This document shows, one piece after another, positions 29,810 to 53,575 of a DNA stretch of 60,000 bases. Where the stretch lies: positions 7,483,726-7,543,725 of the forward strand of contig NC_087074.1 in assembly GCF_026151205.1 (NCBI RefSeq), in the 5' to 3' direction. Both the position numbers and the translations under genes were made by a program. The notes under the pieces were generated by a model. It did not search any database. It had not been told where the DNA came from and saw nothing but the letters and a program-made list of their open reading frames with translations. The stretch is from Bolinopsis microptera (lineage: Eukaryota > Ctenophora > Tentaculata > Lobata > Bolinopsidae). The stretch's first letter is position 1. Each line of letters begins with the position of its first letter.

Positions 29810-29821
29810 TACATAATAAAG

Positions 29822-34730: not shown

Positions 34731-35655
34731 TAGGAGAGGTGTGATTCAAATAGAGTGTAATACAACTGGCGGTGTAAGAAATCTGGGAGGGAGCAGCGTA
34801 GGCGGCAGAGAGTTGATGTTGCATGGCTGAGAGAACGCCTAAGTGATTTTATATGTTCTTCCCAGGTTAGCTTTTCATCGATGACGACTCCCAGAAACTT
34901 AGCAGATGCAACTTGTTTTATTGGAAAGTTATCAATGGTTAGAGTATATTCAGAATTATTGTCAGTCTGGGAGGACGATGCTGGTTTAAAGTGAATGAAA
35001 CAGCATTTAGACAAGTTGACATGGAGTTTGTTTGCTCGCATGTAAGAATATAAACTAGCTAAAAGAGAATTACCACGCATATATGCCTCCTTTTTAGATT
35101 TCCCAGTCACAAATATATTGGTGTCATCAGCGAAGGTGACAAATGATCCCAAACTGGAGCTGTTGGCGATATCATTAATATATAGGAGAAATAAGAGAGG
35201 TCCAAGAATCGAACCCTGAGGGACTCCAAACTGTATTTTCAAGGCGTCAGATTTCTCACCAACAACTTCAGTATATTGTGATCTATTTGTTAAGTAACTT
35301 TTTATAAGATCATTTGCCACCCCACGTATCCCATAGCCCTGTAATTTGACAAGTAATGTACCATGATCTATTGTATCAAAAGCTTTGCTAAGGTCTATGA
35401 ATATGCCTAAGACATGATGCTTAAGTTTTAGAGATTCAGTTATAAGGTTTACTGAGTGATTAACTGCATGTGAAGTAGAGTGTGACTGCCTGAAGCCAAA
35501 TTGTGTTTTAGATATTATACCCTGTGAGCTAGCAAACGAATATATTCTTGAGTAAATGATCTTTTCAAAGATTTTACCAAATATAGAGAGAGTAGAGATT
35601 GGGCGGTAGTTTTCTATCTCTTCAGGGTTTCCCTTCTTAAATACAGGAGTTAAAT
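34731..35655 (-). pseudogene. LINE ORF2, central reverse transcriptase
   Basis: Continues ORF2 after the frameshift. It contains NYRPISTLSIFGK, FIDLSKAFDTIDH (motif A), GVPQGSILGPLLF (motif B) and TFADDTNIF (catalytic FADD). It runs to LFESHLSYC, where the + strand LINE interrupts it at the 4-base duplication acaa. The apparent extra residues after SYC in the continuous ORF come from the inserted LINE's tail. Confidence 0.88.
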
Positions 35656-37545
35656 TCTACCAGTCTTTAAAACGTCGGGGAACGTGCCATTAGACATTAA
35701 GATGTTGATGTATCGACTAAGGATCGGTGTAATTACGTGAGATGATCTTTTGATTACACTAACAGGAATATCACTTGCTTTTCCATTTTCAAATCCTTTT
35801 ATTATTTCCGTTATCTCATAAGGTGTACAGTCTTCTAACATAATCGATTTTTCATTAGTCTTTCCAAGGAAATCATAGAATGTTTTTATAGGGAGAATTG
35901 GTAAGCCAGAGGCCTCACTGCTACTAAGTGTTTCATTGAGCTTAGGGGCAATAGAAACAAAGTAAGAGTTGAATCCATTGGCTATGACTCTACGATTCAT
36001 GATTCGTTCGTTGTTTATGATAAAGGGAGGCTTAGTTTGCTTCTTTTTCTTGCCCCTGAGCTCATTGATTATCTGCCACGTTTTTTTGCTGTTTTCTATA
36101 TTTTTATGGATTTCATTGCAGTAGTACGATCGTTTGGCGACCTTGATAATACTTTTAAGCATTCTTCGGTAGTCACTGAAGACTTTATAGAGCAGTACAT
36201 TACCCTCTGGGTTTCTATTTGTTACAGTGCTTGACCAGTCTCTACAGAGTTCATGTTTTCTTTCAACTGAGACAATGATTCCATCGGTAATCCACGGGTT
36301 GAGTTTGGGAGTCCTTTTGGTAACTTTTGGTACATCAAGCTTACAGTGTTTATCAAGTGTTTCATTGAAGCAGTCCAAGAACTCATTGAAGTTTACCGAG
36401 GGAGTTAAGTCATTCACCTTCACCTCGAGTTCATTAACAAAATTAGTGAGTTTGGAACTTGAATAATCATAGTAGCGAACATGTTTAAGTTTTTCAGTAC
36501 TGTTTTCGGTAGGAATTGACGTGAAGGTGAATATAAAGGCATGGTCACCAATCCTATCATTCAATACACCGGAGAGAAGTACATGATCTATCTCTGATGT
36601 GAGGATATTGTCAATACATGAGTTTTTACAGTTAGGACGGAAGTGGGTAGCAAGTGATATAGTAGGATACATATTGTTACGAAGTAACGTGTCCTCAAAT
36701 AACTGGCTGGAGGTTTGTACATTGAGGAGGTTAGAGTTAAAATCGCCAAGAATATGGAACTTTTTACCAGCCAACTGCTTAGATATATCCTCAAGAGTTT
36801 GACAAAAGGTCTCACTACAGCCATTTGGAGGACGATAAGCAACCCCATATGTCAGTTTATCACCCAAGCTAAGAGTAATTTCAACAAATAAGCACTCAAT
36901 ATCTTTTGTACAGTGAGATAGATTTTCGATTACTACAGCATTCAGGCGATCAGAGACATATAAGGATACTCCTGTTCCTTTTTTCTTATCAGGGAATGGT
37001 ACTTGACAAAATGTTGTATAGGAGGGGATTTGGTATAAGCCTTGTTGGCTTGGATCGATGTTGGTCTCAGCCAATCCAATGACATCAAAATTACACGGGA
37101 GGGTCTTATGTTCTATTAAAAAGCTGTCAAAATTACTAGCAAACCCATCTATATTGCAAAACAGAGCGGGCAGATAAGCAGAATTTTTATTTTTCTCAGG
37201 AAAAAGTTTGCTGATTGAGTTTGCTAGTTCTTGTTTTGTGTAACGCTTACAGTCTTCAAGTATTGAAGAGAATTTAGCTATGGTGACATCTTCCTGGTTG
37301 TTTGTATCATAGAATTTATCTGAATCATCATATCTTTGGCTGCTTGGAAATGGGCAATACCTATCTTCTATTGTACTACAGCAATCACTACACATCCATA
37401 GACCGTTTTTGCTTGTAAATTTCGCGGATCTGAAGCACTTAGTATGAACAACTTTGCTGCAATTTCCACATTCTAAGAGTGGCTGGCCAATATTAATGTA
37501 TTTACTACAGGGGTCGCACACATCTTTAATAAGTTTCATAATCAT
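35650..37545 (-). pseudogene. LINE ORF2, 5' part: zinc finger and AP-type endonuclease
   Basis: 631 codons. A second PHD-like finger occupies residues about 9-56 (CDPCSKYI, CGNCSKVVHTKCF, WMCSDCC). An apurinic-type endonuclease follows, with LAETNID, LGDFNSNLLN, SCIDNIL and GDHAFIF at the expected order and spacing. The frame then enters the reverse transcriptase (VIKRSSHVITPILSRY) and stops at KTGRI. Two extra bases near 35656 shift the frame there, and the normal TPVFKKGNPE continuation is readable in the next frame. Confidence 0.88.
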
Positions 37546-37551
37546 GATAAA

Positions 37552-39297
37552 CTAAGTGGGATAAACTCCCACTGGTCGGGTGGCCTTCCTTTGTCTTACT
37601 CTCTCCTGTCTCTCCCTCACATACACCCACTGTTTCAGACATCTCACAAATTTAGCAATACCAAGCTCTCCGAGATGGTTTTCATCACCATTTCTCGTGA
37701 GTTTCATAGCAAGCAACCCTTTACCGTCTAAAAAGTGGCCAACACCAAGGTGCCATACATTCTGGTTAAAGCTAGAGTACAACATTTCATCAACCAAGCT
37801 GTTGAATGCCATAATGTTTTTATTCATCTTAGGGAGTCTAGACGGTAAAACTGCTGTGACAAACAACTTCGCCTTAGGGCACAGTTTCTGGATCTGCTGG
37901 ATTTTCAGGTGGAGAATGTCTACCAGCTGGTGTATATCACCAGGTGACTGCACATTTTCAACTCGTAGATCGTTGGTCCCACAAACTAAGATGACGTTGC
38001 TATAACCAATGCAGAGCTTAGGGTCTATTGCACTGACCTTGTTGGCTTTAACACGTTCACCTGGGAAGGACTGTCCAAGGGTTCCAGTACCGACACCGAA
38101 CTTGATGGGCTTGGTGTTAGAGTCGCCCATGATGATGCAGCTCCGGCTAAACTGTTTGCTCACAGTTCTCAGTGTGATGGAGAACCTTCCTGTCTGCACA
38201 GAAGACTGAGTTTCAGCAGGACCTGTTTCATCAATACCGTGACGATACCAGGCTTGTGACGATCGTGTCATCACATACACTGAGTTAGATTCTGGACTCA
38301 CACTATGAACATACTCAGTTGAGGCTTCGTTTCCGGTCTCATGGATGCACTTAAAGCACACCTTCCTGACGTCGCCTATGCTGATAGTAGCAATTTCTGA
38401 GTTAGCAATAATCTCAGACTCATCGTCAGAGTGAAAAGGGAGCTTGCTACTAGTGGTGGTATCAACTGAGGGAGGGTAGTAGTTTATTAGGATGGAGTTG
38501 GGCTTATGGGTCAGTCTGCACTTTGATGTAACTGCGTCTATGGCTGAGGCAAGGGGTGCTGGGATTGTGGGGGATAGGGGTGGGTCTGAATCACCAGTAT
38601 AAGAGTAGTCTTCCCCAAACTTGAGGACCTGTCTTCCATTCTTCGGGATGAACTTATTACTAGCTTGGCTCTCCAGGAGAAACTCTGTAACTTCTTTGAG
38701 GATCTCAGCACTTAGCACATCGACCAGGTAATCACACACTGGAGGTTCTGTGCATTTAGGGAGGGGGATTTTTGTAGCAGGTGGTGCTTCAGATGGACTT
38801 CTGGACTGCTGAAATTCATGAATCTCTTGACTCAGCTTCTTCAGTCTTGTCTCCAGGGATACAATCTCCACAGTAGGCATACTGTTACCAACAGCATTAG
38901 AAATAGCATCTGATATAGCCTGTATGTTCTGGCTGTAGTCTACAGAGCTCTTTAGGTTGTTGTCCATCTTGGCTGACATGCTGGAGCCTGGTCTGGGGAA
39001 TGATGTATCGAAACACCATGGACATAGCCATTCTGAGAGAATAATATTCAGAGAAGCTTCAAGAGGTGTATCGTACTGAATGTTGTTAGCACCCTTGAGA
39101 TTGCAACAGGAAGCATGCCAGTGCTGAAAACATCTGGTACACTTGAACTTCCATTCCTTACCATCTGATGTTGATCGGCAAGGACAATCACTCTTTGAAG
39201 CCCGTTGTTTTACTGTAGGTTTATCCTGGATTTCAAGTTCTTCAGCAGACTCTTCAGCACGGGAGAATGGAGGAAAGGACTTGTACAGAGGGCTCAT
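37552..39297 (-). CDS. LINE ORF1 protein: PHD finger plus SGNH esterase-like domain
   Basis: An intact ORF of 581 codons. Residues about 38-95 form a PHD-type zinc finger (CPCRSTSDG, CTRCFQHWHASCC, WLCPWC). About 125-170 looks helical. From about 390 there is an SGNH-hydrolase-like domain, with the GDSN block (IIMGDSNTKP), the GxND block (VCGTNDLR) and a final HLGELG. Esterase and PHD domains are known in ORF1 of several CR1-group LINEs. They are thought to act in RNP formation, membrane interaction or chromatin targeting. The stop at 37552-37554 is followed after six bases by the ORF2 start, so ORF2 is probably translated by reinitiation or a similar mechanism. Confidence 0.88.
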   Translation of the reverse strand: MSPLYKSFPPFSRAEESAEELEIQDKPTVKQRASKSDCPCRSTSDGKEWKFKCTRCFQHWHASCCNLKGANNIQYDTPLEASLNIILSEWLCPWCFDTSFPRPGSSMSAKMDNNLKSSVDYSQNIQAISDAISNAVGNSMPTVEIVSLETRLKKLSQEIHEFQQSRSPSEAPPATKIPLPKCTEPPVCDYLVDVLSAEILKEVTEFLLESQASNKFIPKNGRQVLKFGEDYSYTGDSDPPLSPTIPAPLASAIDAVTSKCRLTHKPNSILINYYPPSVDTTTSSKLPFHSDDESEIIANSEIATISIGDVRKVCFKCIHETGNEASTEYVHSVSPESNSVYVMTRSSQAWYRHGIDETGPAETQSSVQTGRFSITLRTVSKQFSRSCIIMGDSNTKPIKFGVGTGTLGQSFPGERVKANKVSAIDPKLCIGYSNVILVCGTNDLRVENVQSPGDIHQLVDILHLKIQQIQKLCPKAKLFVTAVLPSRLPKMNKNIMAFNSLVDEMLYSSFNQNVWHLGVGHFLDGKGLLAMKLTRNGDENHLGELGIAKFVRCLKQWVYVRERQERVRQRKATRPVGVYPT

Positions 39298-39380: not shown

Positions 39381-39957
39381 CTGGTCTGGGTCCTCGTTTG
39401 AGATGGACTCCACTATCCTCAGAGCTTCTTCTTTGGAGCTGGCTAGACTCCCGGCATCATCCACGTATCTCCGGTAGAATGAGACGTGTAAATCAGTGTA
39501 AATCGATCTTCTCTCGAACATATATACTCGTACTATCGCTCCTATTGGTGATGGTTGGCACCCCATGAAGAGACCAATTTTCTGGAGGTAGAGTCTTGAG
39601 TGATATGTAAAGTATGAGTTGGTGAAGACGAATTCAAGGATCTTGTGGATGTGCGTGAGTGTTAGACCCCAGGTGTCGAGGTCTTCCCAATGTTCTTCGG
39701 TGAGTGTAATGAGGTCTTGAATGCAGCCACTGATGTTGATGTTTGTGTACAGTGCTGTGACGTCAGCTGTGAAGAATGAGAGACCTGAGAGTTGTTGATG
39801 TGACATGTTTTGAAGCTCTTCTAGGTGAGTGTGTATATTGCTCAGGTGAGATGGAACATGATTAAGCAGAGGAGATAGAATAGATTTAACAATCCAAGCA
39901 AGCTTCTCAGAAGGGGAATTTATACAAGACACAATTGGACGTATTTTACAATTAGAA
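39381..39957 (-). pseudogene. Penelope-like element, left arm, 5' half
   Basis: Mirrors the + arm from the truncated start to EALRIVESISNEDPDQ, where the LINE begins. Reverse transcriptase motifs TADVTALYTNI, GCQPSPIGA and RRYVDDA are intact in this piece. The residues after DPDQ in the open frame belong to the LINE 5' end. Confidence 0.88.
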
Positions 39958-40020
39958 ATAATATCTACATCTGAAACTAAGACATATATATTCTAATTGT
40001 AAAATACGTCCAATTGTGTC
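39928..40020. repeat. Inverted junction of the Penelope arms
   Basis: gacacaattggacgtatttt + acaattagaa (39928-39957) pairs perfectly with 39991-40020 around a 33-base spacer. This is the tip of an inverted repeat whose arms extend for about 1.8 kb once the LINE insertion is discounted. Confidence 0.92.
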
Positions 40021-41500
40021 TTGTATAAATTCCCCTTCTGAGAAGCTTGCTTGGATTGTTAAATCTATTCTATCTCCTCTGCTTAATCATGTTCCATCTC
40101 ACCTGAGCAATATACACACTCACCTAGAAGAGCTTCAAAACATGTCACATCAACAACTCTCAGGTCTCTCATTCTTCACAGCTGACGTCACAGCACTGTA
40201 CACAAACATCAACATCAGTGGCTGCATTCAAGACCTCATTACACTCACCGAAGAACATTGGGAAGACCTCGACACCTGGGGTCTAACACTCACGCACATC
40301 CACAAGATCCTTGAATTCGTCTTCACCAACTCATACTTTACATATCACTCAAGACTCTACCTCCAGAAAATTGGTCTCTTCATGGGGTGCCAACCATCAC
40401 CAATAGGAGCGATAGTACGAGTATATATGTTCGAGAGAAGATCGATTTACACTGATTTACACGTCTCATTCTACCGGAGATACGTGGATGATGCCGGGAG
40501 TCTAGCCAGCTCCAAAGAAGAAGCTCTGAGGATAGTGGAGTCCATCTCAAACGAGGACCCAGACCAGTTGCTCAAATGGGAAATTGACTATCCGGAAAGC
40601 CGTCAGGATTTCACCCCATTCCTCGACACCCAGATAAAGATCGACGAACAGGGAACACTACACCACAAATTCTACAGAAAGAAGCAGAAAAAGAATATCA
40701 CACTGCACGCCAACAGCCACCACAATGAGGGAACTAAAGTAGCAACCATCAAGAACTTCTACAAAACGGCTGCTTTTTGCTCATCAACACCAGAGTATAA
40801 AGAAGAGTCCATGAAGATAGTAGACAACTTGTTGGTCAACAACGGTTACCAAGACCCACGACGTATAAACAAAACAGGACGACTTCACCCTCTCTCACCT
40901 ACAACACGTCATAACCCTTCATCATCAAACATACAAGATACCGACCACGCAACATGCACTCTACCATTCATCAACGAGCCATTTTCCAAAGAAGTCACTC
41001 AATTTGCCCTCTCACACAACTTACCGGTCAAATTCATATTCACACCAGGTAAGAAACTCTCAGAGATCTTATGTTCATCACGACCACACGACAAACCACA
41101 CTGCACCATACCAAACTGTATCATATGTCCACTCATCACAACAAATCACGACTGCAAACCAAAATGTGTCATATACAAAGTTACGTGTAAATTATGTCAA
41201 GAGCTATATATAGGGGAAACGAGTAGAACAGCACACGATAGATTTTCAGAGCATCGAAGAGCAGTCAACAGGCCTTTAACCTATCCTGATAATGCGTTGG
41301 CTGCTCATTATTCAGAGTTTCACGATAACATAGAACCAGATATTTCCTTCGATATTTTAGAGATTAACTTATATAGCACCATTAAACGTAAAGTGACAGA
41401 AGCTTACTACATTAATTTATTTAAACCTAGTATCAATAACAAAGAAGAGTGCGAGAAGCTTAAGGGATTTCTTTTACAACATATTCAAAGACAAATTTAA
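39991..41500 (+). CDS. Penelope-like reverse transcriptase with GIY-YIG endonuclease (N-terminally truncated)
   Basis: The open frame runs from the junction to 41500 without an ATG near its start. It joins in the middle of a conserved RT block (KIRPIVSCINSP). Motif A is FFTADVTALYTNI, motif B MGCQPSPIGAIV and motif C RRYVDDAG. FLDTQIKIDEQG and HHKFYRKK follow. About residue 395 of the frame counted from 40016 starts the GIY-YIG nuclease (LYIGETSRTAHDRFSEH). It ends near EAYYINLFKPSINNKEE. This RT plus GIY-YIG order defines endonuclease-positive Penelope-like elements. The 5' RT region is missing, so this copy should be inactive. The 3' untranslated region runs to 41795. Confidence 0.92.
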
Positions 41501-41919
41501 ACAAATAGCACACGACCCTGCTGTTCAGTAGATATTATGTACTTGGACAGAGTGTAAAACGTGTGTACATCACTATTTTCAATGTAATGTACAATACCAT
41601 TTGATGTAACCTGTATTCAGTGTGTGTAATTTTAATTTAGCATTTTAACTAGTATAGAAGCATTTATTATATACTAACATTTACAACAATTTTAGCCTGA
41701 AGATGGCGTTGACGCCGAAAATTTGCCCTTACTCCTAACTTCCTTGTTTCACTTGTCCTTGTCTCTTCCAACCGGATAATATCCAGATATCAGTATTTCA
41801 ATCATGAGACTAATAAACAGCGAACTACTCCGTTATTTGATACATAATAAAGGATTAAAATGCAATGAGTAATCGAGGGAAAACCGTTTCTAGCACCTGG
41901 AATGGTCATATAAGAAAGT

Positions 41920-42630
41920 TGTTGGCCTCTCGGACCAACAAGACTCTTTAATTATAGGTGGTTCTTTGCTAAAGTTCCGTTCATTTGGCTGAATTTGTCG
42001 AATCCATTTCTCTTGAGAACTCAAAGTTTTAGTATACCTCCAAGTCAAATTTATTTTACGGATTGAAACAGTTAATTGAATTAACCCGTAAAACCCCCGC
42101 ACATCTACAGTGACTTTGGTCATTAGTCCAGTGAAACTTTCAAAATATAAAACACCGATAACGGGTCTACTCAAATGATCCAGGGTGTTGGTCATTAGTC
42201 CGGAAAAACTTTCAAAATATACGGACCTTCAAATGATCTAGGGTACATAGTTCCGTGTTGATTAGTTTCAATTGAGCATTAACGAGGCCACGCATCGGCG
42301 ATCTAGAAGCCGTGTTTCGATGCGTCCTAACGGCAACAACACTGCCCGACTATATCTGAATTTTAGTTGCGATAGCAACAAGTTACAATTCGACGTAGCT
42401 CTCAAATAAGCTACAAGTTCAATTCAAATCGGAAATATAAAAAGACTCTCAATATATGAACCTTATCTCCGAAGGTATCTATTTAATGAATTAATGGAAG
42501 TATTATTATATTTGAAGGCTTATTATACGACTCTATCAATTGTGTTCAAGTAACCATAAATTGAGACTGATTAAAAGCTCTAAAATCTAAAATATAAAAT
42601 ATAAATAAACCACAACGGCAGTAGCCAAAA
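41920..42630 (+). repeat. 5' LTR
   Basis: Starts TGTTGGCC and ends GTAGCCAAAA. A TATA box tataaaaag is at 42436-42444 and a polyadenylation signal aataaa at 42604-42609, 22 bases before the end. The sequence equals the 3' LTR after removing the LINE-like insert from the latter. Confidence 0.92.
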
Positions 42631-42631
42631 C

Positions 42632-42649
42632 TGGTGCCCTCCTGGTTCG
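42632..42649 (+). promoter_or_regulatory. Primer-binding site
   Basis: tggtgccctcctggttcg begins one base after the LTR. Its complement ends in GGCACCA, as expected for a tRNA 3' end. The tRNA species was not identified. Confidence 0.65.
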
Positions 42650-42726
42650 AATTGACGATCTCTTCATATCAAGCTTCAATTACTGAAACATCAAACTTCA
42701 ATCATTGAAACATCAAGTTCAATAAA

Positions 42727-43190
42727 ATGGCTGAACTGGACAATGCAAAGAAGGAAATAGACAATTTGAAGAAGCAGCTACATGAAATAAATGATAAAAA
42801 TGAGGATCTGAAGACATATGCCGACAAACTTAAAAATACAGTCAAAGACACTGCAAAGAAGAACGAAGATTTGAAGAAATATGCAGACGATTTATCGGAC
42901 CGAAATAATAATATGCTCGAGACTAATCAGAAGCTAGATAATGAATATAGAAGAATGCAACATGAATTGGACAAACGAACTCAGCTTAAAGAACAGGAAA
43001 TGGATAAAGCCTATCTTGACGGACAGAAAACTGGAAAATTGGAGCTTCTGGAGAAATGGGACGGAAATAGAAAATCAGATATACCGCTAAGAAAACCCGA
43101 CATCTTTCGTCACGGGGGAAACTTTAAACGATGGCTAAAGAATTTTCAACATTTTGCGACTGCATCGAAAATCCCAGAAAACAAGAGATT
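42727..43190 (+). pseudogene. gag, 5' part (coiled coil and capsid start)
   Basis: The ATG follows the leader by about 80 bases. Residues 1-100 are a charged heptad-rich coiled coil (AELDNAKKEIDNLKKQL). The start of a Ty3/gypsy-type capsid follows: PLRKPDIF, GGNFKRWLKNFQHF and PENKR. Capsid homology stops at PENKRL, and the frame closes at 43215 inside foreign sequence. The continuation is found 0.8 kb downstream. Confidence 0.7.
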
Positions 43191-44021
43191 GGGAAGAGGG
43201 ATGAGCTCCTTATAATCCCAGTCTCTAACAGGGGGAGGTGGATCCGCGAGGATCCGGGGACACGTTAAACATTTCTATAGTGCTGGAGAGGAAACTGAAG
43301 GCTCCCGTGTCTAACGAAGTGTGAATTAACACACTGCCTTGGTACCCTCTAGTCGGCCGTGTTTTCGGGCTACCTGGTGTTCAGTACCTGGAGCTTGTCA
43401 CCCCCAGGACTGGACATACGTCCCCAGGCAAGTGGAACACGGTGGTACGTGGACGACAGTCCACACCTAGCTAGTATCTTATCTTTTTGAACCCCACAAA
43501 GGTGGAAAATTACCCAGAAAGGGAGTAAATAAAAATTTGGAAGATAAGATCTAGTGAACAGGCAAGGCAAGAGAAAACGGTCAAAGTTCATAGTTGTGAC
43601 AGCTAAGTCCTCTATGGATAAGACCGTCGGTGGAACCTAGGAGTGCCAATCCCACTTACTGGTCATCCATCGCTACAGACTGGGTCCCTTGCCGGTAGGT
43701 TCACATATGCGTAACATCCTTTTATGTAAAAGGTTGCGTGATCTGCTCAATGTACAGTCGGGCCTACATAAGCTAAAAGCGACTTGGTCTTTATGATCGT
43801 CCAGTTAGTAAGCGAATGTAGCTGTTGTGATCAAGGGGATTAAAAAGTGAACCTTGGGAAGCAATGGGCAGTTCTTTAAACTGCGGGAATGGGGTCAGCT
43901 CAGACTGCGCCTGGTTACACATAATGATTAAGTAAGAATAAATAAGTAAGTAAGGGTGCATAAAAATTAAAAGTTATGATTGAATAGAAGCAGTTGAAAT
44001 GTAACAGGAGGTCGAAGACCA
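43191..44021. mobile_element. Unidentified 0.83-kb insert in gag
   Basis: Capsid coding breaks at ...agattgg and resumes at tggatgtatta, giving a 3-base duplication tgg. The insert is GC-richer than its surroundings at its start, rich in short inverted repeats (for example ggatccgcgaggatcc, 43241-43256), and has no long ORF. Near its end it has gattaagtaagaataaataa followed by gtaagtaag. This resembles the 3' part of some non-LTR elements, but no family was recognised. The boundaries do not fit a GT-AG intron. Confidence 0.5.
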
Positions 44022-44647
44022 GAAGTGTGGATGTATTAATTACCTATTTGGATCAAACATGTCAATCAAAAGTCGACACATTGAATTTCGACAGAATGCA
44101 GAGGCTGGATTTTGAAAGTTGTTGTGAAAAATTGGTACGAACAATAGAGGGATCAAATTCGAAAGCAGAATGGAGAACAAAATTATTCTCAGCAAAGCAA
44201 GAACCGACTGAATCAATCACGGATTTTGTAACTCGTCTTAACGACATGGCGGAGCGTTGTTACGGCACAGAAAAATCAACAATTAAATCGCAGATTTTAT
44301 ACGACTGTTTCATCAACGGATTAGCGTCTGAACAAATCTGTTTTGAAATTATAAAAAACGGGACCAACGACTACGCGACGGCATATGGTCAAGCGCTAGA
44401 TTTAGAAGCTATACACGCACTTCGAAGTGTCAAACCTAAAGTGGAAAAGAAAGAAGTGAAATTCGAAGATGAAGAAACAGAACTGTTCGCCATTCAGAAT
44501 GGACAGATGCCGAATTTTAATAGACAAAACTATCAAAGACCAAATTTCGATCGTCAGTACAATCAGAGATCAAACTTCAATCGCCAACAAAATCAGAGAC
44601 AGAATTTCAATAATCAGTGGAACGACCAAGCACTGCCGGCAGTGTAA
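44022..44647 (+). pseudogene. gag, 3' part (capsid and Asn/Gln-rich tail)
   Basis: Resumes with DVLITYLDQTCQSKVDTLN and continues through FVTRLNDMAERCYG and LYDCFINGLASEQICFE, typical of Retrotrans_gag capsids. The tail repeats NFNRQNYQRPNFDRQ-like units. In the next frame at 44628-44650 a CRQCKC cluster may be the start of a nucleocapsid zinc knuckle. The element loses its coding capacity exactly there, which suggests a deletion that removed the rest of gag and all of pol. Confidence 0.7.
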
Positions 44648-45824
44648 ATGTAAAATCCAATTGGCGGGAATTATTTGGAATATTCGGACAAAGTAAGTTT
44701 ACGATTATATTTGCTATTATTAGCAACGTACAAAGCATCGCCGTATGGTATCTAATCTGGAGGTACATTATAGTAGAATTAATTATAAGTAAATGCGTCG
44801 ATCGCACCAGAGGACGGATCCCAGTTAATGAGGGCCCAATTGACCGGGATGGTCAGGATGATACGGAAGTTTAATTCCTAGATTGACACTGTCCTTTATA
44901 TGTACTGTAGTAAATGTGTATATTTAGATATTCTCCTTAGATATTCCATCAACATAAAGAATTAATTAGCTGGAATTTTAATTATGTTAGTAAATAAGGA
45001 TAAGTAGTAACAAGGCTACTATGTATGATGAACATTATTTGAAGGAACTATTATAAATAAAGTATATATATATATGAAGTATGAGTACTAGGACAGTATA
45101 ACTATATTATGATTGACAATGAAACAATGATAATGAATAACAAGTGCACAATATGATATGTAATAAGAAATAAATATGCGCAATATGACAGTATTTGTAT
45201 GCAATGATATTAAAGTAAATGCACTATGTATGACAAAGATTATGTTATGAAAGATAATAAAGCGCAATCATATAAAATGAAAGTGCACAAGATAGCTAGA
45301 TTATGAATGAAGTGTATGCGCAAAGATATGATCAAGATGAGTAACAAGTAATGCACAATATGGCATGATATTTAAATAAGTGATAAGCAAGCGCTATGAA
45401 AATATAAGATTAAAATAATGTGAGATATGAAACGCCATGAAACAAACCATATTTTAAATGCAGGCCGGCCAAATGGAATGGGAACTAGATTAAATGACGT
45501 CACCCGGAAAATTTTATTTATTTATTTATTTATTTAGTTCTTAATTTATTTATTTATTTGCGTGCACGATTTGTGCCAAATCTGAGCTTAAATGTGCCAA
45601 AAGACTCTTTAGATCCAAGGCAAATTGAACGTGATTGTTGTCTGGAACCAAAATAATTACTTTAGCATGACCTGTTTTGTATACTTTTCTAATAAAACAC
45701 AAAAACCAAATTAGGCACGTAGTAATTTAGAATCTTGTATCTTTGTAACTAAAGTTACAGTTATAAAAATATATTATAATATGACCGGTTAATGGTGGTT
45801 AATCTAAATACTTAAATAGCAAGG
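44648..45824. other. Region where pol would be expected; no coding, degenerate repeats
   Basis: No protease, RT or integrase motif was found in any frame. The region 45140-45400 carries six or more copies of tgcacaatatga or tgcgcaatatga-like phrases roughly 20-35 bases apart, with one larger gap. A (ttta)n tract lies at 45513-45560. The spacing suggests a worn tandem array or repeated RNA signals. Confidence 0.65.
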
Positions 45825-47906
45825 ATGCGGAAGAAAGGATATTATCAACAAGTTATCTTCTTTATCAGTTGCTGCATAGCACTTTCAAAAGGAATGATTG
45901 AAGAAATCAATTACCACCAGGAAAAGACTGGTCTCATCTTACAAGGAATCGGAATCGTCGCACCGGAGATTACCCCTGTGCTGATATCAACATTTATAAA
46001 GATAAGAAATCCAATGAAAAATGTAAATGAATGCGAAAACATATGCAACATTGACGAAAATGTAATTTGGGGACTGCTAACCCACGTAAAATGTAATCAT
46101 GTGCACAACAAAATCGGAGATCGCCAAAATGTAATAAAGGAAATCGAGAATTCGGTGGATAAAGACCTCGAAAATGATTCTAGACAAATGGCGGAACGAT
46201 GTTTCAGAGAATGTATCAAAATACCGAAATGTAAAGCTTTCGGTGTGGAATATAGATCTGACGTCGTGATCTGCATTCTGAGAGAAACCATCCCTACGTA
46301 TCATCAGGATTCTAAAGGTTCAAGCGAATTCGACATGCGATGCATGGTCGAAGATAAGAATAAATTCTGTGGACAATATCAGTCCAGAATCAATATTCTG
46401 TTTGAAAAATCAAATGAAAATTTTGTCAATGAAACAATGACAAAAATAGAAAAACTTACTGAATTGACGAAAAACAGGAAACAGAAAAGATTTGTTCAAG
46501 CAGCCCTTGGATTTTTTGCCGGTTCTATTCTTACTGGAGTGTTCAGTCTCTATGAACAATCGAAAATTTCAACTCAACTTAACGAGTTCTACGACCAATT
46601 TCAGGATTTCCGTAATGAAATGACGGACTATATTGAATCAGCAACGGAATTTCATGAAGGTATGTTGAAAATGTACAAAACTTTGGAATTAAATTCCCAG
46701 GAGTCATTGGAAGAATTAAGCTGTGAAATGATGAGTATAATTCGGTATAACCTGAAAAGAAATCAGCTTCAAGACTGGAAAGAGTATATATACACTCTCT
46801 CGAAAGATTTGATAGACGGCCAATTAAAAGGTCCCGTGAATATACTGGATTTGCTGAAACATAAAAGAATGGAGGACGCAATTTATGTTGACAACGTCCC
46901 TTTATTCTATCGTCTAGGCAGAATGTGGCTAGCTGATGTAAAGAAAGATGGAAAATTTTTCAATCTTCATGTGATTATATCGATACCTCAAATAAAAAGT
47001 GATGAAATGTACATCCTATATCAAGTGAACCAAGTAGGTTTGGTCAATGGTACTCAGTGCATGCGTCTGGATATACCGAATCACGTGTATCAAAAAGATG
47101 GCGAATTCTACGAATTGGAAAACGAAAATAATTGCGAGGTCCGAAGTGGGATAAAATTATGTCTGGGGAATAAAGAAAACGAAGAATCTGCAAAGAAAGC
47201 AAGGTGTTTAAACGCCGACCCAAGAATATGTAAAACGAATTTGGAAAAATGTCAAATGCGCAATATTCAGACTAGTTCTGGTGTCATGGTCAGAGCAATA
47301 CATCATTTGAAAGCATCGACGCAAGAAAGTCCTACTGAATACGTGGATATTTCAAATGGAAGTACGGTGAAATTTCTCAACTACGATAAATATTATCAAA
47401 TAGTTGCCGACAACTACATCATTAGATCAATTAAAGAGCCAATGTTTACGAAAGAACTAGAGTTGACGAACCCCGAAAAATGGGACGAATATTTGATATC
47501 TGAAAATGAATTGCTGAAAAGAACGAATCTAAGTCAGCTCAGTGCTCATGTAGTTCAACAAAAAGAAATTGTTAAACATATCAAATCTGAAAGAATCGGA
47601 CTAAATCTGACGAAGGATCTAACTCTTGTGAATTTTATAGGAATTTTAACAGTAATGATTAGCATTATAGTGGGAATCTTCCTTCTATACAGCTATTGGA
47701 AAAAACGGTTCAGGACAAGGAAAGTAGAAAAGGACATAGAATTAGAAGAACAAAATAAAGACGAACTTTTAGAAAGCGGAAAAGATGAAGAATCTGGAGT
47801 AGATGAAACTAATTTCAGTGGTGAATATAGCGAAGGACTGCGACAAAGAGCGCCTAGTACAACTAAGGTGTATTCAGTGGACGATGTGAAAAACAGAGTC
47901 TTATGA
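45825..47906 (+). CDS. env: Envelope-like fusion glycoprotein (intact ORF)
   Basis: 693 codons starting MRKKGYY, with a signal peptide (VIFFISCCIALSKG). The ectodomain is cysteine-rich. Around residues 125-175 the spacing CFRECIKIPKCKAFGVEY then CILRE resembles a PAN/apple fold. A furin-type site RKQKR ends at residue 222. It is followed at once by a hydrophobic, glycine- and alanine-rich fusion-peptide-like segment (FVQAALGFFAGSILTG) and a long helical region. One membrane anchor lies at about 603-624 (FIGILTVMISIIVGIF), and an acidic cytosolic tail of about 67 residues follows. This layout fits class I-like retroviral or errantivirus/baculovirus-F Env proteins; the exact class was not identified. 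The ORF is undamaged, unlike gag. It stops at TGA with CTAG following. Confidence 0.82.
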   Translation: MRKKGYYQQVIFFISCCIALSKGMIEEINYHQEKTGLILQGIGIVAPEITPVLISTFIKIRNPMKNVNECENICNIDENVIWGLLTHVKCNHVHNKIGDRQNVIKEIENSVDKDLENDSRQMAERCFRECIKIPKCKAFGVEYRSDVVICILRETIPTYHQDSKGSSEFDMRCMVEDKNKFCGQYQSRINILFEKSNENFVNETMTKIEKLTELTKNRKQKRFVQAALGFFAGSILTGVFSLYEQSKISTQLNEFYDQFQDFRNEMTDYIESATEFHEGMLKMYKTLELNSQESLEELSCEMMSIIRYNLKRNQLQDWKEYIYTLSKDLIDGQLKGPVNILDLLKHKRMEDAIYVDNVPLFYRLGRMWLADVKKDGKFFNLHVIISIPQIKSDEMYILYQVNQVGLVNGTQCMRLDIPNHVYQKDGEFYELENENNCEVRSGIKLCLGNKENEESAKKARCLNADPRICKTNLEKCQMRNIQTSSGVMVRAIHHLKASTQESPTEYVDISNGSTVKFLNYDKYYQIVADNYIIRSIKEPMFTKELELTNPEKWDEYLISENELLKRTNLSQLSAHVVQQKEIVKHIKSERIGLNLTKDLTLVNFIGILTVMISIIVGIFLLYSYWKKRFRTRKVEKDIELEEQNKDELLESGKDEESGVDETNFSGEYSEGLRQRAPSTTKVYSVDDVKNRVL

Positions 47907-47910
47907 CTAG
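47904..47910 (+). promoter_or_regulatory. Candidate stop-codon readthrough site TGA-CTAG
   Basis: The env stop reads tta TGA CTA G. UGA followed by CUAG is the strongest animal readthrough context known, found in genes such as AQP4, MDH1, LDHB and OPRK1 and in some viruses. The frame stays open for 315 codons after it. The sequence is seen; actual readthrough is inference. Confidence 0.6.
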
Positions 47911-48854
47911 ACGAAGTAGAAGAATCAAATTTAAACTTGAACTGGAACCTAAATTGCGAAAATATAAATTGTGGAAACGTGCCAGAAAAAGAGGTAAAGA
48001 AAGCTGTAAATTTACATTACGAAAATGTAAATGATAGTGTTCAAGATGTCAGCGACTGGGAAAGTGAATCAAAGAATACAATAGACTCAAATAGTGCTTC
48101 GGATATACACGAGGAACTGGAGGAATTGAACATCGAGCATGACGCTTCTAACGATGATAATTTGGAACAACTACACAAAGAAGAGACGAAACGAGAAACA
48201 GAAATACCAATAGAAATATGGGTGATGATATTTAATTACCTCACCATCAAGCAATTACTGAAAGTACGAGAATTAAATAAACGATTCAGTAGTTTGGTGA
48301 AGGATTACTTGCGGAACCCTACCAATGTAATAATGGAAAATTTTAAATTTTATAGTTACGAAACGTTTTATTTAACGGAAATACTTATAGAAGATCAAAT
48401 GTGTTGGACGAATATGAAAACTAAAATTGGAAAGTTTGCCATGAAATACATGATCATGAAAGGGGTGTACTGCAGCGCCATCAATAAAGTGGAAAACCCA
48501 TACTTGAGGTTTTTAAGAACACGGTGTCTACCATTGTATACTTTCAAGGACCGGCTAAGAAGCTTCACTCCTAAAGCGTCTGACGACGAAGTGATCATAA
48601 GATGGAAGGAATATAAGAAGAATTCTTGGGCGGATATTTCCCCATTGGAAAAATCAATTATTAAAATGGAATGCAAGTTCCAAACTTTCTTAACGAAACT
48701 ATATATGAATAAATATGGTACGTCTCTACCGATAACTACGAATCGGGAAAAGATCCAAAGAATAGGCAAAATGCTGAAAACCGAAGAGAATAAAAACTTC
48801 AATCTTCTTCAAGCTATAAAATATAGACCCCCGATTGAAGTTCTAATAGGGTAA
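47907..48854 (+). CDS. F-box ORF 1, in frame with env after the TGA
   Basis: The 315 codons share the env frame. No ATG occurs in this frame before the F-box, whose first methionine is inside it (IWVMIF). The first 90 residues are acidic and Asn/Ser-rich. An F-box follows: IPIEIWVMIFNYLTIKQLLK, then VRELNKRFSSLVKDYLR. The rest (about 190 residues) is a helical domain shared with the second F-box ORF, for example WTNMKTKIGKFAMK and LEKSIIKMECKFQ. F-boxes bind SKP1 and bring a target to the SCF ubiquitin ligase; the C-terminal domain would be the target binder. Expression as an Env extension by readthrough is the simplest explanation for the missing start. A spliced RNA is the alternative. Confidence 0.78.
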   Translation, partial: LDEVEESNLNLNWNLNCENINCGNVPEKEVKKAVNLHYENVNDSVQDVSDWESESKNTIDSNSASDIHEELEELNIEHDASNDDNLEQLHKEETKRETEIPIEIWVMIFNYLTIKQLLKVRELNKRFSSLVKDYLRNPTNVIMENFKFYSYETFYLTEILIEDQMCWTNMKTKIGKFAMKYMIMKGVYCSAINKVENPYLRFLRTRCLPLYTFKDRLRSFTPKASDDEVIIRWKEYKKNSWADISPLEKSIIKMECKFQTFLTKLYMNKYGTSLPITTNREKIQRIGKMLKTEENKNFNLLQAIKYRPPIEVLIG

Positions 48855-49024
48855 TCAAACCGTAAAAAGGAAAATGTAAAATGTAAAATGTAAATCAAAC
48901 GTAATATGTCAAACGTAATATCACAACTCACCAACGGGTTCAAAATTATAGAAACAGGCTCTTTCGTCATTTCCATTATCACTTTAATTAAAGTTTTCTA
49001 ACCACATATTGATCAGCAAAGCAA

Positions 49025-49705
49025 ATGGAAAATACATCAGAAGAGATACCTTCAAAAACAGAAGAAATTCAAAGTCTATCCATTAAAGAAGTCAAATCAG
49101 TTTCCAACTGTAATCTACCTATTGAACTATGGCATATTATTTTGACAAGGCTGAATCTACGTGATTTACTCAAAGCCAGGTTAATTTGCAAAAGGATGGG
49201 GAAAATCGTCTCACAATATTTGCGAGACACAACAAGTGGATATCCAGATCTCTTCAGCTTCTATAATTATGAAACATATTATCTCTTTGACATTCTAATG
49301 GAGAACGAGATGTATTGGACCAGGATACAAACGAATATTGGAAAATTCGCGATAAAACTCCTAACCATGAGAGGAGCGTATAATGCAGCAGTAGTAGGAC
49401 AAAAGAAATGTTATTCTCGTTTTGTCAGAACTAGATGTCTAACATTTGAAAAATACAAGTCATTATTCCCAAATGAATCGGACTGGGTTATCCTAGAACG
49501 TTGGGGAAAGTATAAACACGAGTCATGGACGAAATTGTCAAGAATCGAAAAATCAATTATTAAGATGGAATGCAAATTCGATTATTATTTAAAGTACCAA
49601 TACTGTAAAGCTTATGGAACCTGGTTGTCTATTACAATGACAGAAGAGAAAATAAAAGAAATCAGTAAAATGATGAAATACGAAGATAAGCAATACGGTA
49701 AATGA
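49025..49705 (+). CDS. F-box ORF 2
   Basis: 226 codons with its own ATG (caaATGG). After about 30 polar residues the F-box reads LPIELWHIILTRLNLRDLLK, then ARLICKRMGKIVSQYLRD. The C-terminal domain aligns with ORF 1 along its whole length: YNYETYYLFDILMENEMYWT against YSYETFYLTEILIEDQMCWT, and RIEKSIIKMECKFDYYLK against PLEKSIIKMECKFQTFLT. The two are therefore products of an internal duplication, with clear divergence since. The shared C-terminal domain was not recognised in any family known to me. A role as an SCF adaptor that removes a host factor is inferred from the F-box only. Confidence 0.82.
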   Translation: MENTSEEIPSKTEEIQSLSIKEVKSVSNCNLPIELWHIILTRLNLRDLLKARLICKRMGKIVSQYLRDTTSGYPDLFSFYNYETYYLFDILMENEMYWTRIQTNIGKFAIKLLTMRGAYNAAVVGQKKCYSRFVRTRCLTFEKYKSLFPNESDWVILERWGKYKHESWTKLSRIEKSIIKMECKFDYYLKYQYCKAYGTWLSITMTEEKIKEISKMMKYEDKQYGK

Positions 49706-50266
49706 GTTCATCGCATAACTATGCGTGAATCTGCATTTAGATAAAGAATGATGAAAAATGTAAATATTGAAAAATTTGAAACTTAAAATATAAAACTGAA
49801 AACGGGCAGGTTTAAAGATGAGGAAGTTAGATAAGTAAAGGATCGAACTCAGCCCAACTGAGATCCTAAATAATAAATATATGTATACAGTTTAAATTGT
49901 GAAAGTTATTATAAGACTTCAATAAGTTAAACATTTATTAAGTTAAGTAAGAAATTAATTATAAATAAGTAAGAATAAGTTAAAAGGCAAATAAGTTAAA
50001 TATCCGATAAATTGAAAGTAGTTTGTCAAAGGACTATTAATTTAGTACCATTTCAGAGCCTTTTAAGTTTATTGAAGTCTACTGACCAAAATGGCCCATC
50101 CAGGGGTTATGATCAAGTTATTTCATAGGTTCTTAAATAGTTCTTGAATAGAAAATTACAAGCTAGTAGATCTTCTCGTTTAGCCGGTCTATTGAGATTC
50201 TGGATCGCAACCGTATCCCCTCTCTGCACAGGAACATTTCCTACGAAGACCGTAGACGCATCGTTA
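49706..50266. other. 3' non-coding region of the LTR element
   Basis: AT-rich, with repeated aagttaagtaag and aataagttaa phrases around 49920-50000. No ORF was supported. Confidence 0.6.
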
Positions 50267-50425
50267 TCGGGACGTAACCCGAATCTGTTTCGTATCGGGA
50301 CGTAACCCCCGTTGAGAAGAAGAAGAAAGAAGAAAGAAGAGGGAATGGAAAGAATTATAATTGTAGCAATTCGTTACCGGGACGTAACCCGACTTTAAAA
50401 GCATCGCAATCAGGGCGTAACCTGA
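50267..50425 (+). repeat. Four small hairpins with a cgtaa loop
   Basis: tcgggacgtaacccga at 50267-50282, a related tcgggacgtaaccccc at 50295, ccgggacgtaacccga at 50377 and tcagggcgtaacctga at 50410. The last differs from the first on both sides of the stem (G to A and C to T), so pairing is preserved. The second and fourth are each followed by ccccgttg and a purine-rich stretch, so the array is two copies of a two-hairpin unit. Confidence 0.7.
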
Positions 50426-50459
50426 CCCCCGTTGTCGTCGAAGAAAGAAGACCAAAGAA

Positions 50460-50476
50460 AAGGAAAGGAAAGGAAG

Positions 50477-50509
<33 letters not shown>

Positions 50510-50640
50510 TACTACTTGTAATAGTGGTGAGCGGCCCTAATGGCGAATTAGGTATTAATATATGTTAACAGTTTTAAGAAATGTTGATCAGCCCTAATGG
50601 CTAAATTATAGTAAATATTCTCCTATTTGAAGGAGAGGAA
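50460..50640. repeat. Purine tract and two agccctaatggc motifs
   Basis: A 50-base A/G-only stretch (50460-50513) is followed by ggccctaatggc and agccctaatggct, both able to form short GCC/GGC stems with a ctaat loop. Confidence 0.55.
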
Positions 50641-50843
50641 AACTTTGGTGTTAGATGATGATTATAATTAGGAGACCTAGGTTCTAAAATTCAGAGTCTT
50701 AAAATTTAAGGATGTCAAGGAAAATTTAATAGAAGAAAAGAAGAAGACGAAGAAGAAGAAGAAATATTTCATTAGAATAGTACGAGTAAGCCCTCGGTTG
50801 GCGAATCGGCTAATCGGTGAAATGATCAAATTAAAAACTCTAT

Positions 50844-50857
50844 GAAAAAGGGGATCG
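50844..50857 (+). promoter_or_regulatory. Polypurine tract
   Basis: gaaaaaggggatcg lies directly before the 3' LTR, in the place of the second-strand primer in LTR elements. Confidence 0.7.
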
Positions 50858-52948
50858 TGTTGGCCTCTCGGACCAACAAGAGTCTTTAATTATAGGTGGT
50901 TCTTTGCTAAAGTTCCGTTCATTTGGCTGAATTTGTCGAATCCATTTCTCTTGAGAACTCAAAGTTTTAGTATACCTCCAAGTCAAATTTATTTTACGGA
51001 TTGAAACAGTTAATTGAATTAACCCGTAAAACCCCCGCACATCTACAGTGACTTTGGTCATTAGTCCAGTGAAACTTTCAAAATATAAAACACCGATAAC
51101 GGGTCTACTCAAATGATCCAGGGTGTTGGTCATTAGTCCGGAAAAACTTTCAAAATATACGGACCTTCAAATGATCTAGGGTACATAGTTCCGTGTTGAT
51201 TAGTTTCAATTGAGCATTAACGAGGCCACGCATCGGCGATCTAGAAGCCGTGTTTCGATGCGTCCTAACGGCAACAACACTGCCCGACTATATCTGAATT
51301 TTAGTTGCGATAGCAACAAGTTACAATTCGACGTAGCTCTCAAATAAGCTACAAGTTCAATTCAAATCGGAAATATAAAAAGACTCTCAATACGCTGATA
51401 CTCTAAATACTGTGCGCGTTTCGTCCGGAACCTGGGGGAGTTCCCGCTCTAATATATCTGACGACAGTGATTACTCATTATGAGAACTAACCCCGACCAC
51501 TTTCCCGGTCGAACCGTACCCAAATCAAACTAATTTATGAACCACGTGTATAGCCAACGTCCTTGCGGTACTGAGCCGATGTAAAACTCTTCTGTCTCTT
51601 GTTAATATTTTAGTTGTACTGTGCATAAAAGTGTGTAGTGACAAGTGTGTAGTGGTAATGTATATTATTTATTATGACGACGCGATATTTATAATGCAGA
51701 ATTAAAAGCTGCTTTCGATATGACTGGTGGTGGGCTGTCTCCGGCGGGACATAGATCTATATAGGGGGTACCCGGGGTACGAGTTAACGAACAGTGTTCG
51801 TGTCCTTCCACAACCCCCTATTACCTATGTTTCTGTCGGAGGGGAGCCTAATTCATCCGTTAGAATCGCAGAGTTAGCGGAGCTCATGATATCTCGCGAT
51901 GTATGCTGCATTAACGGTGCAAGACTTGCGCCGTTTGTTTCAGCATCCAGTTGCGAGTGCTTGCCCATCGAAAACATGATTAGTGATTGTGGATTTTATT
52001 GATATTACTGATTATCCATCATATTCAGTATTAATGTTATCCATTATTTATTTATTGACATCCTTCAGTCTCCAAAACGAGGTGTGAAGGTAAATTAACT
52101 TTGAGCCTTGTTTTGGCGACTGCTTAATCGATGGGCAAGTAGGTATTTGTTTTTTAGCAGTGTTGAACATTGAAACAATTATAAAATGTTTATTTTTATC
52201 TTATATAACCAATAACGTATAATATGAATGACATATGCTATAGTGACGTAACATATATAGTGCAAAGAATTAGTAACTTGCGAGATGTGATTTAGTGATA
52301 ATCGGCGTTAACATTTTGCAGTTTACAGTTGCGCAATGTTGGCGTCGATTGTTACTAACATTTATCTGAATTTAATACAAGTACATGTCACATATAAATT
52401 GGGTAGCTGAATGAAACTCGTGCCTCAAAATTTTCCGTTATTAGCATTGCAGTGTCCACGCCCTATACTGCGTTAACGACCGAAATTTTCCCAATATGCA
52501 ATTATTATTTTGCTTCTAAAATTCTCTGATAATTAATAATATATCGTGACATGTAATTGTAAGATAACAAACCTCGCGCGCGCGGCGCTTACATCTGCAC
52601 CTGAGAATCTCTCAGCAATGTGTGGCTGTCTGCGCGGCGGGCTGTGTATTGTGTATATAGCTGAATTTAAATTTAGATTTATTTGTAAATGTATAATAAT
52701 ATTAAATATGTTTTGATTGATTGTGGTAAATAAAAATTTTTGTTTTACTAAAAAATTTTTGTTTTACTAATATATGAACCTTATCTCCGAAGGTATCTAT
52801 TTAATGAATTAATGGAAGTATTATTATATTTGAAGGCTTATTATACGACTCTATCAATTGTGTTCAAGTAACCATAAATTGAGACTGATTAAAAGCTCTA
52901 AAATCTAAAATATAAAATATAAATAAACCACAACGGCAGTAGCCAAAA
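50858..52948 (+). repeat. 3' LTR, split by a LINE-like insert
   Basis: LTR sequence lies at 50858-51392 and 52773-52948 and totals 711 bp, equal to the 5' LTR. The insert duplicates aata. The TATA box (51376-51384) is left of the insert; the aataaa signal is to its right. Confidence 0.92.
51393..52768 (+). mobile_element. LINE-type 3' fragment inserted in the 3' LTR
   Basis: The 1,376-bp insert has a 4-base duplication aata (51389-51392 and 52769-52772). It ends in a dimer, atttttgttttactaaa then atttttgttttact, matching the tail style of the nested LINE at 34726. No reverse transcriptase similarity was found, so it may be 3' untranslated sequence only or a SINE that shares the tail. It lies 8 bases past the TATA box of this LTR. 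Confidence 0.75.
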
Positions 52949-53575
52949 AAGTAAGTTCACTTTCTTTTAAGAATGTTAGCAAATTCTAATGCTAGGAATT
53001 CAGTTAGGGCTAAAGTTGAAATCAACGCATGGAGTTAGATTAAGGTATAATCAATTGTCAAATAATGCTTCTCAGTACTGAGATCGTAACATTACTGGGC
53101 CGCTACGAACTGAAATGGATTTAATTAACATACCTAGTCTTTTCCTATTATGATATGGCTCTTGAACAATTTCACTTTCTCCATTTAGTGGAGACCATAA
53201 TTGACCATTGTTAATGGTCTGGCCCGGCGAGTTTACCTAGCCAGGTGTACGTCTAGTACGCGCGCGTATAGTACTGCGTGACGCGCTTGTTAATTCACAA
53301 GTAGCTGATCCCTTGCCGCCTTCGGCTGTCGCGCGCTAATGCAAGCGAGAGGGCTCTGGTTAGAAGAATCAGGCGCGCGCTACTTCGTAGCACTTCGAGA
53401 AGGAAGCGGCGTGCGCTACCGCGCTACTTCGAACAAATTTAGACGCGTAACATCCGTCAATTTTTCCATAGCAAAGCATACATAGTTGCACGCGCAGCGA
53501 CGTCCAACAACAAAAGAATAACATTGATTGACATTGGCTACGACATACGTCACGTGACGTCACAAGGGGGGTCTG
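52949..53575. other. Non-coding flank, CG-rich patch
   Basis: At 53260-53420 cgcgcg and gcgcgc repeats give an unusually CpG-rich stretch for this window. No gene was supported. Confidence 0.5.

Follow-up and report, generated by a model that had tools for sequence, protein, structure and literature searches.

An F-box frame directly behind the UGA-CUAG stop of Env in a ctenophore LTR retroelement: a candidate for translational readthrough

Introduction

Stop codon readthrough is described as abundant in animals, in a report that includes work on Anopheles and Drosophila, and the motif UGA-CUAG has also been named for chikungunya virus (PMC5100048, in the sections available). According to the available part of another report, UGA followed by CUAG gives efficient readthrough of four mammalian genes (OPRL1, OPRK1, MAPK10 and AQP4) in HEK-293T cells, with about 31% in one of them, and 12 nt of 3' sequence is apparently enough for the maximal effect (PMC4132726). 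Here we describe a long terminal repeat (LTR) retroelement of the ctenophore Bolinopsis microptera, located at positions 41920-52948 of a 60,000-nt window (contig NC_087074.1, positions 7,483,726 to 7,543,725; all coordinates below are positions in this window), in which the env frame ends with the same motif and then continues into an F-box. An earlier note on this DNA had predicted that readthrough would give Env a cytosolic F-box tail, and we followed up this prediction computationally.

Results

The Env stop codon and the open frame behind it

The features with which the argument is concerned are the following (ORF, open reading frame):

45825..47906, + strand: Env, ORF of 693 aa
47904..47910, + strand: TGA-CTAG stop context, identical in 10 of 10 copies
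47907..48195, + strand: stretch between the stop and the F-box, coding-like in the Env frame, with no in-frame ATG
47907..48854, + strand: whole in-frame extension (F-box1), 315 codons
48201..48305, + strand: F-box 1, Pfam PF00646, E 1.4e-5
48480..48797, + strand: F-box1 C-terminal domain, placed by alignment with the modelled domain of F-box2
49016..49016, + strand: final base of a candidate acceptor site for splicing (score 0.47; 35th of 557 with a rough matrix)
49025..49705, + strand: F-box2, a separate ORF with its own ATG, Pfam PF00646, E 2.5e-7
49379..49678, + strand: F-box2 C-terminal domain, resembling an HMG box when modelled

The arrangement of Env with an in-frame F-box behind it is real and unusual. 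As the earlier note had described, the TGA that ends the Env frame (47904-47906) has CTAG directly behind it, and the same frame then stays open for 315 codons (47907-48851, with the next stop at 48852-48854) that contain an F-box with no ATG before it; the first in-frame ATG 3' of the TGA lies at 48225, within the F-box. In the window, 43 stretches stay open for 100 codons or more. In two cases, a second stretch of this length comes next in the same frame: the Env/F-box1 pair and a pair resembling a long interspersed element (LINE) on the other strand, where the intervening stop is TAG. The TGA-CTA context was found at one of the 14 TGA-ending open stretches of this length in the window, and CTAG follows 8 of the 2431 TGA triplets on both strands of the window (1 of 182 on the + strand of the element). 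Two features of the UGA-CUAG readthrough class were found here, namely UGA followed by CUAG and a coding sequence that continues in frame right after the stop.

The 289 nt between the stop and the F-box (47907-48195) contain no stop codon in the Env frame versus 11 and 8 in the other two frames. The stretch stayed open in the Env frame in 5 of 20,000 dinucleotide shuffles, and its codon score, trained on Env, was reached by none of 2000 shuffles, the scores of the other two frames being negative. The absence of ATG from this stretch is weaker evidence, as 375 of 5000 shuffles were also free of ATG. By these measures, the stretch looks coding in the Env frame only.

The strongest hydrophobic stretch of Env (residues 604-622) is followed by basic residues, and by the usual inference from such a pattern the C-terminus of Env would face the cytosol, as the earlier note had assumed. 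The TGA lies where Env also ends in a sister family, referred to here as family B (the alignment reaches residue 692 of the 693 in the window Env); it is therefore the genuine terminus of Env, and no recent nonsense mutation created it.

We consider readthrough of the UGA-CUAG stop, giving Env a cytosolic F-box tail, the simplest reading of the sequence, because it accounts at once for the missing start codon, for the coding signal behind the stop and for the leaky context. We assign it a probability of a little under one half (about 0.47). The arrangement would work like the described cases of UGA-CUAG readthrough, among which we do not count it as proven.

Two F-box proteins with a common C-terminal domain

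Both F-boxes score above the Pfam PF00646 cut-off of 20.5 bits (F-box1, 25.2 bits; F-box2, 30.8 bits), and the two proteins are 43-45% identical. Over 198 codons, their synonymous difference (pS) is 0.786 against a nonsynonymous difference (pN) of 0.355, and therefore both genes were translated for a long time after the duplication. This comparison indicates that F-box1 and F-box2 are duplicates that diverged under purifying selection. The stretch 47907-48195 had no match to the start of F-box2.

The predicted structure of the C-terminal domain alone gave an HMG-box-like lead, and this domain may be HMG-box-like in both F-box proteins. A model of the F-box together with the C-terminal part had a mean predicted local distance difference test score (pLDDT) of 53.5 and no structural match at E 0.001. 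Several weaker matches were put aside. The profile of the C-terminal domain found only MYB chains among PDB sequences (E 0.22 and 0.43) and the profile of the F-box alignment found DIA2 (0.045) and COP9 subunits (0.5); neither result was used. Syd matched F-box1 below its cut-off, with E 7e-4 for the whole protein and 1.8e-4 when the C-terminal piece was searched separately, and did not match F-box2. Viral contigs scanned with Env, with F-box1 and with the F-box alignment yielded no relative. Even if the readthrough reading fails, an env-bearing retroelement that carries two F-box proteins, each with a possibly HMG-box-like end, deserves a description.

Copies and relatives of the element

The genome searched (264,652,675 bases in 232 contigs) contains at least 10 near-identical Env loci, the copies being about 99% identical. 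No COX1 was found in this assembly, and its 33 TTAGG matches all lie on contig C125. The earlier note had proposed a comparison of related copies at the stop, and this comparison came out in its favor: TGA-CTAG was found in 10 of 10 copies, with no sense codon or TAA in its place, and none of the 10 had an insertion or deletion between the TGA and the F-box. The extension is open in eight copies; the other two are broken within F-box1, one having gained 1 nt and the other having lost 4 nt. The Env frame is intact in all 10 copies and that of F-box2 in 9 of 10. The Env of the window copy lacks 24 nt that are present in the other nine.

Among the 10 copies, Env carries 14 substitutions in 2079 nt (8 synonymous and 6 nonsynonymous, p 0.009 for the synonymous excess) and looks constrained. 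F-box2 has seven substitutions in 678 nt in its nine intact copies, the broken tenth being excluded. Within 47907-48195, all six substitutions are nonsynonymous, and three of them are common to three or four copies.

Family B consists of two loci, L034 on contig C5 and L035 on contig C3, and the Env of L035 is 33% identical to the window Env over 709 columns. The single F-box ORF of this family lies in another frame and has its own ATG, 65 nt past the last base of an acceptor ranked third of 327; in L034, a frame change interrupts the ORF. Env of family B ends at the equivalent place with TAG-TTTT. From the separate F-box ORF and the different stop, it follows that the fused F-box is particular to the family of the window copy.

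In a third family (L036, 3289-4158), a long tail is fused to Env without any stop. We rejected it as an F-box fusion, as profile comparison revealed no relation to the F-box proteins and the tail had no Pfam match.

Evidence against readthrough and rival explanations

Several of these observations weigh against readthrough. With about 99% identity among the copies, a TGA-CTAG common to all of them is weak evidence that the motif is constrained, and for the same reason the constraint around the stop, which the earlier note had proposed to look for, could not be read from them. In the extension, we found 20 substitutions in 945 nt, 15 nonsynonymous and 5 synonymous, as expected without selection (p 0.48), although a test of amino acid constraint on 20 sites has low power. 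Their density resembles that of the intergenic gap (4 in 170 nt, p 0.78) and exceeds that of Env (p 0.001), and two F-box1 frames are broken versus none of the 10 Env frames. These results speak against recent strong constraint on the extension, and its recent neutrality is a real counter-argument; amino acid constraint was seen in the divergence of F-box1 from F-box2, which is older, and not among the copies. In addition, family B has no fused extension, so that conservation of motif and extension between diverged relatives was not found with the one diverged F-box-bearing family (L034/L035) available. Finally, the 150 and 80 nt from the stop showed no stable RNA structure (z -1.40 and +0.35), and readthrough driven by structure was rejected, since no stimulator was visible in either fold.

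The same neutral pattern suits an explanation in which F-box1 is a fading duplicate, once expressed from its own start, by splicing or by readthrough, the work now being done by F-box2 and TGA-CTAG being a coincidence or a relic. It agrees with the gap-like density of changes in the extension, with the broken copies (2 of 10 for F-box1, 1 of 10 for F-box2 and none of 10 for Env) and with the ATG that F-box2 has of its own. Yet the F-box1 frame is intact in 8 of 10 copies, the sequence leading up to the F-box is open and coding-like as well and has no counterpart at the start of F-box2, and of the 2431 TGA triplets in the window only 8 precede a CTAG. Moreover, neutral change after insertion is expected for any retroelement copy. 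We regard the fading of F-box1 as unlikely, but as the strongest of the rivals.

The 3' genes of env-bearing retroelements are usually spliced, and F-box1 could be translated from its own spliced mRNA with a start codon from an upstream exon, as the F-box of family B may be. Plausible acceptors precede both the F-box of family B and F-box2, whose ATG lies 9 nt downstream of the candidate at 49016, and a good acceptor (rank 5 of 557) is found at 47692 in the hydrophobic region of Env. Any acceptor upstream of 47904 that is read in the Env frame still runs into the TGA, no acceptor between this stop and F-box1 scores higher than -1.9 (rank 92 of 557), and the sequence is coding-like right from the stop. 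The splice matrix is rough and judges poorly, since even the best of the acceptors in the 125 nt ahead of Env comes only 53rd of 557. Because the acceptors next to Env itself are ranked so low, a low rank is compatible with use, and the weak acceptors before F-box1 tell little against splicing, which is a further point to set against readthrough. Splicing seems to us improbable, slightly more so than a fading duplicate. A start at a non-AUG codon such as the TTG at 47937, or re-initiation past the Env stop, would profit from the closeness of the stop to the F-box frame, but is very improbable, as there is no in-frame ATG before 48225, a start at 48225 would cut the F-box and five ATGs in another frame (48025-48154) would catch scanning ribosomes.

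The earlier prediction of readthrough is thus borne out in part: TGA-CTAG in 10 of 10 copies and the coding signal in the Env frame after the stop support it, whereas a sister family without the arrangement and the neutral recent changes in the extension do not.

Architecture of the element

The remaining features of the element are the following:

41916..41919, no strand: 5' target-site duplication AAGT, repeated at 52949-52952 beside the other LTR (by eye)
41920..42630, + strand: 5' LTR, starting with TGTTGG, a repeat of 50858-51392 and 52769-52948
42727..43215, + strand: N-terminal part of gag, ORF
43994..44647, + strand: gag, Retrotrans_gag part, Pfam PF03732, E 3.1e-5, 24.5 bits, cut-off 24.1
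44647..44874, + strand: C-terminal remnant of a second glycoprotein gene, matching the 3' end of a long frame that other copies have upstream of env
50858..51392, + strand: first part of the 3' LTR, repeat match to the 5' LTR
51393..52768, no strand: insert of 1376 bp splitting the 3' LTR
52769..52948, + strand: second part of the 3' LTR, repeat match to the 5' LTR

The 5' LTR is 99.8% identical to the first part of the 3' LTR (535 columns) and 100% identical to the second (180 columns). By eye, an apparent foreign insert interrupts gag from about 43206 to 43980, and the glycoprotein remnant contains a hydrophobic stretch. No ORF for reverse transcriptase or integrase was found in the window copy by the ORF list and Pfam. 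Among the matches listed, integrase zinc-finger matches lie near several related env loci and on contig C184 together with a 98%-identical gag, and gag is retained at at least 4 of the 10 loci of the family. The window copy has the LTRs, short target duplication and gag of env-bearing Ty3/Gypsy elements, and lacks their reverse transcriptase and integrase; it is a relative of these elements without pol and not a full member. It is a young env-bearing LTR retroelement whose relatives seem to be of the Ty3/Gypsy kind, and on the basis of the window copy and parts of the copy on contig C7, its family looks non-autonomous. Four points go beyond the earlier note: the absence of pol, F-box2 as a second F-box ORF that starts at an ATG, the lead towards an HMG box in both F-box proteins and the second glycoprotein of the relatives.

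The window Env itself has no match to Pfam Fusion_gly, whereas that of its relative L035 has one (38.8 bits, cut-off 29.8, E 4.6e-10); through this relative, the window Env is probably paramyxovirus-F-like. In other copies, a second glycoprotein frame of up to 565 codons lies upstream of Env. Its relative in L034 matches Pfam Monjiviricetes_fusion (E 8.2e-7, 27.8 bits, cut-off 27); the family's own second-glycoprotein sequence, searched in part, gave no significant Pfam match. Coordinates compared by eye place this gene near 9 of the 10 env loci of the family and near 14 more distant env loci (examples are L074:1780-3000 and L034:2-1069). As a class-III-like gene precedes the F-like Env, it seems that retroelements of this group have a pair of envelope glycoproteins, each from another class.

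In the C7 copy, the LTR leader is followed by a zinc-ribbon ORF and then by the two glycoproteins, without gag or pol. The zinc-ribbon stretch (L074:899-1741, between the LTR leader and the second glycoprotein) encodes 280 aa with a double zinc ribbon (Pfam DZR, 2.3e-7). Four of the more distant env loci (L044, L047, L052 and L053) have open stretches of 177-271 codons 3' of env, which are not direct continuations of it, and additional genes 3' of env may be common in this group.

Outside the element, the LINE-like pair occupies 35652-39297 on the - strand. It comprises an ORF with a 2OG-Fe(II) oxygenase match, the stop context TAG-TTTA and then 633 open codons in the same frame, which by eye resemble a PHD finger, an endonuclease and the start of a reverse transcriptase. 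Penelope-like pieces with weak reverse transcriptase and GIY-YIG matches, below the Pfam cut-offs, lie at 39381-41798 and 29819-31051; they form a 1.2-kb near-perfect inverted repeat, and a further inverted copy lies about 10 kb off.

Discussion

If readthrough takes place, the element would work as follows. Duplication gave two F-box ORFs, of which F-box2 stands alone, with its own ATG and perhaps a spliced mRNA, and F-box1 lacks a start and sits in frame behind the natural UGA-CUAG stop of Env. The majority of ribosomes would make plain Env, and some would decode UGA as an amino acid and so append a linker, the F-box and the HMG-box-like domain to the cytosolic tail. The extended isoform would probably recruit SKP1 and cullin-1 to the membrane or to budding particles, where an SKP1-cullin-1-F-box (SCF) ligase could assemble on it, and a partner bound by either the C-terminal domain or Env would then be tagged for degradation. 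What it would degrade is a guess; the removal of a receptor or a restriction factor, suggested in the earlier note, is one of several possible functions. As a whole, the proposal of programmed readthrough that makes an Env isoform serving as a membrane-anchored SCF adaptor with an HMG-box-like target-binding domain, beside an F-box paralogue in soluble form (the former would act at the membrane or virion and the latter inside the cell, perhaps directed against receptors, restriction factors or silencing proteins), is tentative and rather doubtful. If it is true, a single gene yields both a fusion protein and a membrane-held ligase adaptor in a ratio set by a leaky stop, which offers a way to learn what elements of this kind need to destroy if they are to spread.

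The titles and abstract beginnings that we surveyed contained no F-box in an env-bearing retroelement and no combination of F-box and errantivirus, in line with the earlier note, whose author knew of no described retroelement with this arrangement. To our knowledge, the F-box proteins P0 of poleroviruses and CLINK of nanoviruses are not fused to an envelope protein.

Among env-bearing elements, the TelKA LTR elements of bdelloid rotifers and the non-autonomous TelKA2n have a paramyxovirus-F-like env, as the window element probably does; unlike here, neither an F-box nor readthrough is mentioned in the available part of the TelKA account (PMC5408684), and the available text of PMC7264820 does not mention an F-box either. 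The envelope-carrying gypsy elements of insects likewise combine a gypsy-type element with viral fusion glycoproteins; the glycoproteins described in the available text are of type III, and no F-box gene is mentioned there, although no search aimed at one was made (PMC13172572). With OPRL1, OPRK1, MAPK10 and AQP4, our locus shares the UGA-CUAG, the in-frame coding extension and the short 3' context, as far as that source was available (PMC4132726). It differs from them in that the protein is a retroelement Env, the extension of 315 codons holds a whole domain, no constraint was seen among the copies and the readthrough is a predicted one. Like P0 and CLINK, F-box1 and F-box2 are F-box proteins encoded by a mobile genome itself; those two belong to plant viruses (PMC3588083, in the part available). 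A functional parallel in the available part of the same source is HIV-1 Vpu with the host beta-TrCP, as in both cases an SCF ligase would reach its target through a retroviral membrane protein (PMC3588083). Vpu borrows the F-box protein of the host, whereas the ctenophore element encodes an F-box; the likeness is functional and no homology is claimed. If readthrough takes place, the extended Env would be a built-in counterpart to Vpu with its borrowed F-box protein.

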